NCBI RefSeq assembly: GCF_029267515.1
Contig: NZ_JAJUIS010000002.1
Span: forward strand, 1-64,000
Length of the DNA: 64,000 nucleotides
Direction: 5' to 3'
Source of the DNA: Seleniivibrio woodruffii
Lineage (GTDB): Bacteria; Chrysiogenota; Deferribacteres; Deferribacterales; Geovibrionaceae
The notes under the pieces were generated by a model. That model ran no database searches. It had not been told where the DNA came from and saw only the letters and a list, made by a program, of their open reading frames with translations. The translations under genes and the position numbers were made by a program. The first letter of the stretch is position 1, and every line of letters begins with the position of its first letter. Shown here one piece after another: positions 8,186 through 16,037 of the stretch.

Positions 8186-9320
<1,135 letters not shown>

Positions 9321-9324
<4 letters not shown>

Positions 9325-10349
9325 GGCAGTTTCACCTTTTCTTCCGCTTTTCTTGAGGTGGAACTGTTGAAAGGCCATTTCTCCTCAAGGTTCAGCAATA
9401 TCCTGTTTGAGGTGTTCATGATATCGTCCGTCTGCTGACGAAGATCTTTAAGATTTGTTGTGGTTTCGGACACGTCGGTTGATATCTTGTTCGCGTTTTC
9501 AACAGTTTTCTGGAGTTTTGTAACAGTACTGTCTATATTGCGCGCCAGCTTTCCTATATCCTCCGCGCCCTCTTTAATGGCAATTATCCCCTGATCAAGG
9601 TGCTGGATTGCGGGTTGTGTCTCATCCACTCTGTTGTTTACGCCTGCCACCGCCGTGTCAACCTTGTTGGTTATCTCTATCAGGTTTTCCTGGGTGATGG
9701 CGAGCCTGTCCATTATGTCCTGAACTTCGTTTTTGAGATAGTCGGAGCGGGTGAGAAATCCCACCGAACCCTGTTTTTTGGAAACGTCACCGCCGAGGTC
9801 TCCAAGACCCTGCATGAGTTCCTCTATACTCTGTCGCTTGCTGGAAACGGAGGCGGTCACGTCGTCCACGTTGACAAGGATATTGCGCACGTTGTCCAGC
9901 ATCGGTTCGAATTTTTTTATAATGTCGGCTATAGCCTGATCTCTGGTGAGTTTGTACGTCTGTCCGTCGTCTATCTCGTTTTTCGAGTCGATGCCGCCGG
10001 AAAGCACTATCGCGTTGGCGCCTATCACGCCCTGTGCCTGTATTTTCGCCTGTGATTCGGGTTTTACCCATTTTTTATAGCGTACCGGAATTTTTGCGCG
10101 CAGTTCAACAAGACCGTCGTCTCTGAGCTCGACGCTGTAAATTTTTGCTATCTGGAATCCGGAGTACATGACGGGCATACTTTTTGTAAGCCCTTCACCG
10201 GATTCGGAAATGAATACGATCTTGACCTTTGGTGTGAAAAAGTTCTGCGTTATAAGGAAACCTATGAGGAAAGCGAAAGACATTATAAGGGCTACGAAAA
10301 TGAAAAGCCCTACTTTAAATTCGATATTTTTAAATCGAGGGTCACCCAT
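9321..10349 (-). CDS. MlaD/MCE-domain lipid-transport protein
   Basis: A 342-residue MCE protein: one N-terminal membrane anchor (about residues 12-33), one MCE domain (about 38-118, with VMYSGFQIAKIYSVEL and GVIGANAIVLSGG), then a long helical tail rich in coiled-coil heptads. MCE proteins form hexameric rings that carry phospholipid between inner and outer membranes. The start ATG follows AAAAGGA and lies inside the 3' end of the preceding gene (40-bp overlap). Single MCE domain plus long helices fits the MlaD/LetB/PqiB superfamily. Confidence 0.88.
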
Positions 10350-10837
10350 GTGTCAAAATCCTTTTCTGTATAATCCTGCATGTCGTCAAACAGGTGTCTG
10401 TGGTTCTCATGGTCTATGATAACCGATTTTTTTAAATCTTCACAGCGCAAAAATTGATGAAATTTCTCTTCATATTCTGCGATGTACATTCTTCTGGGGC
10501 TGAAAAAAACAGTCCATTCCGCGCGCAGGTATTTCACCTGTAAGTACTTGACAATCATCTTCTGGAAATCGTTCAGCTGGTTGCTGCGGTAATGCATGAT
10601 GTCCATTATTTCAAACTTTTCCATGTCTTTCCGGACTATGTCAAGAGCGGCATGATACGTTATCTTGTGGTGATATGTCAGCGGCAGGAGTATGTTTTCT
10701 ATCACCGAAAGGTTGCCTATTATGGGGAAGAAGGAGGATACCAGACCAACCCGCTGGGTCTTTACGACTTCCATGAGCACGGACATCCATTCCTGCATCT
10801 TGTCTTCGTTGTCATAATATATGAGATAGTTGCTCAT
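10310..10837 (-). CDS. Truncated, motif-less ABC-ATPase-like protein at the MlaF position
   Basis: A 175-residue protein between MlaE- and MlaD-like genes, where MlaF normally lies. Residues 28-75 (TQRVGLVSSFF, NLSVIENILLPL) align by eye with the Q-loop region of MlaF-type ATPases (mvFQ..lf..ltV.eNV.lPL), and the following helices match the helical subdomain. There is no Walker A; the LSGGQ position reads LNDFQ; the Walker B Asp-Glu is absent (WTVFFSPRR). It therefore cannot hydrolyse ATP by the usual mechanism. It overlaps MlaE by ATGA and MlaD by 40 bp. The open frame and couplings argue against a pseudogene. Confidence 0.75.
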   Translation of the reverse strand: MSNYLIYYDNEDKMQEWMSVLMEVVKTQRVGLVSSFFPIIGNLSVIENILLPLTYHHKITYHAALDIVRKDMEKFEIMDIMHYRSNQLNDFQKMIVKYLQVKYLRAEWTVFFSPRRMYIAEYEEKFHQFLRCEDLKKSVIIDHENHRHLFDDMQDYTEKDFDTWVTLDLKISNLK

Positions 10838-11610
10838 ATGAACGTTCCTATCAGTTCAATAACGATTATTGCATAAAACAGCCGCTGCATACCTCTCAAA
10901 AGTGATATAGGTATTTCTGTGACTGCGTTTCCCGTTTCCAGAGCTGTGTATACCGGAATTGACATGAGAAAATAGCCTCCGAGAGCTATCTTTATAAAAA
11001 ATGCCAATAGCGTGTCGATCGTGAAGGCGTCGAAGATTGTTCCTATCAGGAAATCGAATGATATATTAAGATTAAAACTTAGTATAAGGTATCCGCCTAT
11101 AATCGATATATATATAAAAATCACAGACAGTGCGGACAGGCAGACTATGCCTGAGACTATCCTTGGAATGTAGAGATATACGAACGGGTTAATTGATAAA
11201 GACCTGAGCGTTTCTATCTCTCTATTCATCTTCATAAGCGAGATTTCGGCGGTTACCGCGGTGGATGTTCTGAGTGTCAGAAGTACCATTGTAACAAGGG
11301 GTGCAAGGTGCTTTATTGTGATGCTTACAAGTACCGACCCCACTGCATCCTGTGCTCCGAACTGCACCATGAACTGAGTGAGTCCGCCCACAAGCGCAAG
11401 ACCTATCGCTACGGATACGATGGAGAACATAGGAAGTATCTGAACGCCTGTGAAATATATCTGACGAAGAAACACAAGCTGCACAGAGGGATAGAAGATA
11501 TGAGGATTAAAACACCCTTTGAAAAAAGAGATTGTGAACCAGAAGTATCCGTAAAAAAAATGCATGGATGCGATAGCCTTCTGTCCCAGCGCTGTTATGA
11601 GTTTTTTCAT
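10834..11610 (-). CDS. Divergent MlaE-family permease
   Basis: A 258-residue membrane protein with about five to six hydrophobic segments and the MlaE layout: an N-terminal amphipathic helix, the central loop HLAPLVTMVLLTLRTSTAV..EISLMKM..EIETLRSL.INP, and later transmembrane helices. Canonical MlaE has RELGP and GRVGS here; both are altered (KHLAP, LRTST), while the E..LMK and P of the coupling helix remain. It is the first gene of the Mla-like operon. TATAAT lies only seven bases before the ATG and no ribosome site is visible, so the mRNA may be leaderless. Confidence 0.82.
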   Translation of the reverse strand: MKKLITALGQKAIASMHFFYGYFWFTISFFKGCFNPHIFYPSVQLVFLRQIYFTGVQILPMFSIVSVAIGLALVGGLTQFMVQFGAQDAVGSVLVSITIKHLAPLVTMVLLTLRTSTAVTAEISLMKMNREIETLRSLSINPFVYLYIPRIVSGIVCLSALSVIFIYISIIGGYLILSFNLNISFDFLIGTIFDAFTIDTLLAFFIKIALGGYFLMSIPVYTALETGNAVTEIPISLLRGMQRLFYAIIVIELIGTFI

Positions 11611-15578: not shown

Positions 15579-16037
15579 ATGGAAAAAATCATAGAACGTA
15601 TTAAAGAATATGAAGGATTCAGTGTAAAACCTTACCAGTGTCCGGCAAAAAAATGGACTGTCGGCTATGGCTATAACTACGAAGACCGCGGGTTCTCTGC
15701 AGCCGATATCACAGAGATACTTAAAAACGGTTTTACGGCGGAGTTTGCTGAAAAGCTGCTGAAACGGGATGTTGAAAAATGCCTGAAAGACGCGGAAGCA
15801 CTGCCGTTTTACAGTGCTCTTAACGATGTACGACGTGCTGTGGTTGTGGATATGATATATCAGCTCGGCATCGGCGGTTTCAAAAAATTTAAAAAGATGC
15901 AGGAGAGGCTTTCCGCAGGCGATTATGCCGGAGCGGCAAGGGAGATGGCGAACAGCAAATGGTATGCGCAGTCGGGGCGCAGAAGCCGTACCAATGTGAA
16001 ACAGATGGAAGAGGGTACTTGGCAGGAGGTGAAATAG
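15579..16037 (+). CDS. Phage-type lysozyme (glycoside hydrolase family 24)
   Basis: A 152-residue muramidase-like protein that would cleave the peptidoglycan glycan chain. The catalytic Glu lies in KEYEGF (Glu12), followed by the family motif KPYQCPAKKWTVGYGYN and the C-terminal RRSRTNVKQMEEG. The residue aligned with T4 lysozyme Asp20 is Cys; family members with CP at this site are common and a T4 Asp20Cys variant is known to be active. No signal peptide is seen, so release would need a holin or lysis. AGAGGTGAAAG precedes the ATG. No other phage genes surround the pair. Confidence 0.88.
   Translation: MEKIIERIKEYEGFSVKPYQCPAKKWTVGYGYNYEDRGFSAADITEILKNGFTAEFAEKLLKRDVEKCLKDAEALPFYSALNDVRRAVVVDMIYQLGIGGFKKFKKMQERLSAGDYAGAAREMANSKWYAQSGRRSRTNVKQMEEGTWQEVK

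Follow-up and report, generated by a model that had tools for sequence, protein, structure and literature searches.

A conserved, truncated relative of ABC ATPases at the MlaF position of a divergent Mla-like transporter

Operon organization

The window analyzed here, a stretch of 64,000 nucleotides, carries on its reverse strand an operon of four overlapping genes. The first encodes E2, a permease of 258 residues (10834..11610) that belongs to the MlaE family by its Pfam match (PF02405, E=5e-42), its coupling helix and its place in a permease tree. It is followed by pF (10310..10837), whose product of 175 residues is almost certainly a conserved, truncated pseudo-ATPase of a Mla-like transporter, i.e. 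the core of an ABC nucleotide-binding domain without catalytic motifs. The third gene encodes D2, a MlaD-like protein of 342 residues with a single MCE domain (9321..10349; PF02470, E=8e-7, together with an alignment and a structural model), and the fourth a lipoprotein (8650..9324), which we assigned from its sequence and its conservation in the operon. The E2 stop and the pF start codon share an ATGA (4 bp, 10834-10837), and pF and D2 overlap by 40 bp (10310-10349), which agrees with an earlier sequence-only reading of this DNA. The lipoprotein, listed as an open reading frame at 8650-9378, likely starts with the GTG at 9324 and would then share a GTGA (4 bp) with the D2 stop codon. A lipobox-like motif is found in 73 of its 80 homologs, and no Pfam family matches it above threshold.

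D2 is composed of a transmembrane helix (residues 4-34), the MCE domain (41-136), a long helical tail and a conserved C-terminus ending in LP. Its predicted structure (pLDDT 61) is confident only in the N-terminal part, with low confidence for the helical tail, and leaves undecided whether D2 spans the periplasm. The locus presents the features of a Mla-type transporter, with an MlaE-like permease and a membrane-anchored MCE protein flanking pF and a lipoprotein beyond D2. A working MlaF is not encoded in this operon, where pF alone occupies the MlaF position; the true mlaF lies in a separate operon. Elsewhere in the window (15579-16037, forward strand), a reading frame of 152 residues resembles a phage-type, GH24-like lysozyme by eye, among neighbors that are non-phage.

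Motif loss and predicted fold

The sequence-only reading had described pF as lacking Walker A, Walker B and the LSGGQ signature, and our alignments bear this out. Neither Walker A (GxxxxGK[ST]) nor an LSGGQ-type signature occurs in pF or in any of the 61 family members that we scanned. The signature position, LSGGM in canonical MlaF, indeed reads LNDFQ (residues 88-92; 10562..10576, reverse strand). At the Walker B position, alignment and model place the segment WTVFFSP (residues 108-114; 10496..10516, reverse strand), and the aligned stretch TVFFSPR contains no Asp-Glu. Likewise, no H-switch histidine is aligned in the pF alignments; the patterns for the Walker B glutamate and the H-switch have few matches (2 and 3 of the 61 members), judged by pattern alone. 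A Walker A motif hidden upstream is ruled out, as only six in-frame codons precede the pF start.

Pfam recognizes no ABC domain in the 175 residues, and NCBIfam yields a weak ABC match (2.6e-4). Taken by itself, the Pfam result would fit a chance reading frame, or an unrelated fold with a spuriously ABC-like stretch. A profile built from the relatives of pF, however, matches ABC ATPases in the PDB with E=4e-10 over residues 20-147. An AlphaFold2 model, computed with 37 sequences in the alignment, is of high confidence (pLDDT 91.6, pTM 0.87), and its best 50 Foldseek matches in the PDB are all ABC nucleotide-binding domains (E=2e-7). They include MlaF (6xgz) with a TM score of 0.6 by query length. 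Together with the conservation described below, these matches rule out a chance origin or an unrelated fold, the probability of which we consider practically nil, and they uphold the earlier description of pF as a motif-less relative of ABC ATPases at the MlaF position.

The model comprises strands at residues 4-8, 30-33, 108-112 and 138-143, and helices at 11-27, 45-56, 61-74, 90-104 and 120-132. We read it as a parallel ABC core with a helical subdomain that would have lost the antiparallel β subdomain, the core being present and the latter absent in both the model and the Foldseek comparison. The topological place of the P-loop is taken by a strand-loop-helix without Walker A residues (residues 1-27, strand 4-8 and helix 11-27; 10757..10837, reverse strand; from the model and the alignment).

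Conservation and distribution

In its own genome, pF is a single-copy gene. Among the 51 genomes of the phylum, 38 encode E2 and the same 38 encode pF, which is truncated in every case; both genes are missing together from G013 and G020, which belong to one genus, and from several other families. The nearest named kin of the window, by a scan of named genomes, are found in Seleniivibrio (84%) and other Deferribacteres. The gene order E2-pF-D2-lipoprotein is maintained in every pF homolog examined, and dN/dS for pF within the genus, computed leaving out the overlap with D2, is about 0.07-0.12.

The loss of all catalytic motifs could in principle mark a pseudogene or a local deletion, still translated and devoid of function. 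This is ruled out by conservation and purifying selection: the truncated form is found in 38 genomes of the class and in several other groups, is never full-length within its clade and evolves at a dN/dS of about 0.1, so that we assign this explanation a very small probability. The word 'remnant', which the sequence-only reading had used for pF, thus says too little, since pF represents an old, selected family that extends over several phyla. Full-length MlaF proteins at this position, which that reading would have taken as the sign of a local deletion, were found only in more distant sister lineages.

Beyond the class, the family is patchy in at least three further groups. pF occurs together with E2, D2 and the lipoprotein in a Campylobacterota-labelled metagenome-assembled genome (MAG) and in several MAGs labelled as Deltaproteobacteria or Pseudomonadota. 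Clear truncated homologs are present in about 13 of 298 genomes from the phylum of locus L101, in about 9-10 of 297 from that of L103, in G742 and G880, both from one additional family, and in a single genome (G1133) from the phylum of a Nitrospirota-labelled MAG. Matches of 50-70 bits in other genomes (e.g. L049, L100, L105 and L127) represent ordinary ABC ATPases and were left out of these numbers. On plasmids, we found no pF match, and the openly licensed papers that we searched contain no description of a truncated pF family.

Two further observations concern individual loci. Two class genomes of ~1.3 Mb (G046 and G047; loci L041 and L044) keep the operon with a very diverged permease (PF02405, 35-40 bits). 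In the Campylobacterota-labelled MAG (L101:4392-6375), genes for a 451-residue AAA/SMC-like ATPase and a 219-residue HNH-like protein lie between pF and D2, a pair that by eye resembles a two-gene defense cassette inserted in the operon.

Evolutionary relationships

A tree of 68 permeases places all 37 that are partnered with a truncated pF on one side of a single branch (support 100/98), so that one change explains the truncation; the pF proteins likewise form one clade (100/97). Between the pF-linked permeases and canonical MlaE lie permeases whose operons encode, at the same place, full-length and progressively degenerate ATPases. Those of L149, L150 and L152 have kept Walker A and the catalytic glutamate and have no H-switch histidine. 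Those of L102 and L104 retain Walker A, with Asp-Asp at the Walker B position and no aligned histidine, and those of L225 and L226 (G813, G067) retain Walker A with Asp-Asn, i.e. the catalytic glutamate replaced by asparagine, again without histidine; the latter two perhaps still bind ATP and hydrolyze it slowly or not at all. Finally, the ATPases of L142, L143 and L144 (G537, G604 and G466), whose operons are sister to the truncated ones, are full-length proteins that have lost Walker A, and may be independent or transitional dead motors. To judge from these sequences, the H-switch would have been lost first, followed by the change of the glutamate to aspartate or asparagine, the loss of Walker A and, at last, truncation. 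These lineages are not direct ancestors, and some sit on long branches.

Canonical MlaF and other MCE systems

The sequence-only reading had left two possibilities for pF: either a true MlaF is encoded elsewhere and pF serves as an adaptor, or the transporter works without ATP hydrolysis. The suggested search for a canonical mlaF was successful. A canonical mlaE-mlaF-mlaD operon lies at C29:172-174 kb of the same genome, and its MlaF (251 residues) has all motifs. This rules out pF as the only MlaF of the genome; pF is part of another, divergent system, the second one present. The genome encodes yet a third MCE system, which is LetB/PqiB-like, with a protein of 978 residues and about seven MCE domains (C4:6639-9281 in G000; L005-L011).

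The first of the two possibilities is thus correct as to the true MlaF, which sits beside its own MlaE and MlaD. As to pF, it would make it an adaptor or regulator of a transporter energized by the canonical MlaF, be it as one half of a pF/MlaF heterodimer or by governing whether MlaF binds. Such sharing is not without parallel, since MceG serves more than one Mce system, and a canonical motor is at hand: each of the 30 canonical MlaE loci examined in the phylum has at its side an MlaF in which Walker A, Walker B and the H-switch are present (at one of them, L073, the signature missed our search pattern), and a further MlaE is encoded in all pF genomes tested. However, the canonical MlaF has an MlaE partner of its own, and the coupling helix of E2 (MKMNREIETL, compared to MKVTEQVDAL in canonical MlaE) conforms in most members to N-x-E-(I/L)-x-(T/A)-L, unlike the conserved canonical TEQ(I/V)DAL. 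Furthermore, pF has neither Walker A nor signature; a heterodimer with MlaF would therefore have no intact composite ATP site, one site being without a Walker A and the other without a proper signature, which argues against energization by MlaF. In the sister lineages, moreover, the ATPase seen to degenerate is the one encoded at this very place in the operon. We therefore consider an adaptor role unlikely, if worth keeping in sight. For its part, pF goes with its own permease throughout. The overall pattern favors the second possibility, transport without ATP hydrolysis, although the data do not prove it.

Discussion

What could a dead nucleotide-binding domain contribute to a transporter? 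The most conserved of nine regions of pF is the post-Q-loop/helical-subdomain segment FFPIIGNLSVIENILLPLTYHH (residues 36-57; 10667..10732, reverse strand), with a mean of 2.67 bits and the invariant residues P38, N48 and Y55. In ABC proteins, the part that follows the Q-loop faces the permease. Since this segment is the most conserved and the coupling helix of E2 is still recognizable, we propose that pF docks on E2, which we hold to be quite likely. The proposal draws on the analogy with MlaFEDB, where MlaE contacts MlaF through its coupling helix (PMC7790496).

Alternatively, pF could have kept its fold and taken on a new function unlinked to holding the permease, such as binding a signaling protein or ligand, or sensing in the cytoplasm in the manner of the STAS protein MlaB. 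W164, F129 and F150, which are strongly conserved outside the ATP and coupling regions, would suit such a role, as would the rebuilding of the P-loop place into a new strand-loop-helix. Yet the linkage of pF to E2 is inseparable, and conservation peaks in precisely the segment that contacts the permease in ABC proteins. We thus deem a new role improbable and return to docking as the preferred reading.

Overall, we think it fairly probable that this is a Mla/Mpc-like MCE transporter whose ATPase has degenerated into a docking subunit without catalytic activity, and which probably acts as an ATP-independent lipid conduit. It would consist of an E2 permease dimer, a D2 hexamer that extends into the periplasm and the lipoprotein, which is probably located at the outer membrane. 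The ATPase subunit would have decayed stepwise and finally been truncated to the dead core that is pF, which probably still docks on the coupling helix of E2 via its conserved helical subdomain and would hold the permease together or fix it in a single conformation. Lipids, the presumed substrate, could then move from membrane to membrane by a passive route, along a downhill gradient or under a driving force that is not ATP, which is what is assumed for Pqi and Let, two systems that have no ATPase. As for the ATP-independent function taken alone, we lean only slightly towards it. Whether the family represents a widespread, unrecognized class of MCE systems, in which an ABC motor became a structural permease subunit of a passive or gradient-driven conduit between membranes, seems to us evenly balanced.

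It is debated whether Mla-type transporters need ATP, and in which direction the lipids flow. A lineage that has kept the permease, the MCE ring and the lipoprotein with a disabled ATPase, and that has living intermediates in other bacteria, offers a direct way to ask if an MlaE-MCE conduit can function in the absence of hydrolysis. The same series traces the gradual conversion of an ABC motor to a structural protein. The finding is more general than a single genome, as the same dead motor occurs in distantly related phyla, so that cells seem to retain a lipid transporter in which an ATPase of its own is no longer used. Because the pF family is almost invisible to Pfam, a survey of MCE systems that relies on annotation would overlook it or conclude that the operon has no MlaF. 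One survey, by Grasekamp et al. (PMC10665443), covers MCE systems with MlaDE clusters and remarks on uncertain MlaF annotation; the section consulted describes no such family.

Comparison with known systems

Like MlaFEDB and the minimal MlaEFD systems (Escherichia coli, Veillonella parvula), and like the canonical copy in its own genome, the E2 operon has the order E-F-D, an MlaE-family permease, an MCE protein with a transmembrane segment and an ABC fold at the MlaF position. It differs from them in its truncated ATPase without any catalytic motif, its diverged coupling helix, the lipoprotein as a fourth gene and the lack of MlaB, MlaC and MlaA. The chimeric Mla-Pqi system MpcEFDA of Brucella abortus (PMC12436622) shares the layout of permease, ATPase-position protein, elongated MCE protein with a helical needle, and lipoprotein. 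There, however, MpcF is a conserved ABC ATPase, MpcE has a STAS domain and MpcA is PqiC-like, whereas the E2 operon has a dead ATPase and a lipoprotein without a Pfam match above threshold, and thus no recognizable PqiC-like (ABC auxiliary) domain.

PqiABC and LetAB build an MCE-based membrane bridge without an ATPase motor of their own, and Pqi has an outer-membrane lipoprotein (PMC10897342, PMC12436622). Their membrane proteins PqiA and LetA, though, belong to a family unrelated to the MlaE-family permease of this operon and have no partner resembling a nucleotide-binding domain, and their MCE proteins have several MCE domains per chain. In ABC transporters with degenerate sites, a nucleotide-binding domain is likewise kept as a non-catalytic partner. 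Those transporters have domains of full length, and each complex retains one or more working sites, whereas the products of the E2 operon include no working site and the domain itself is truncated.
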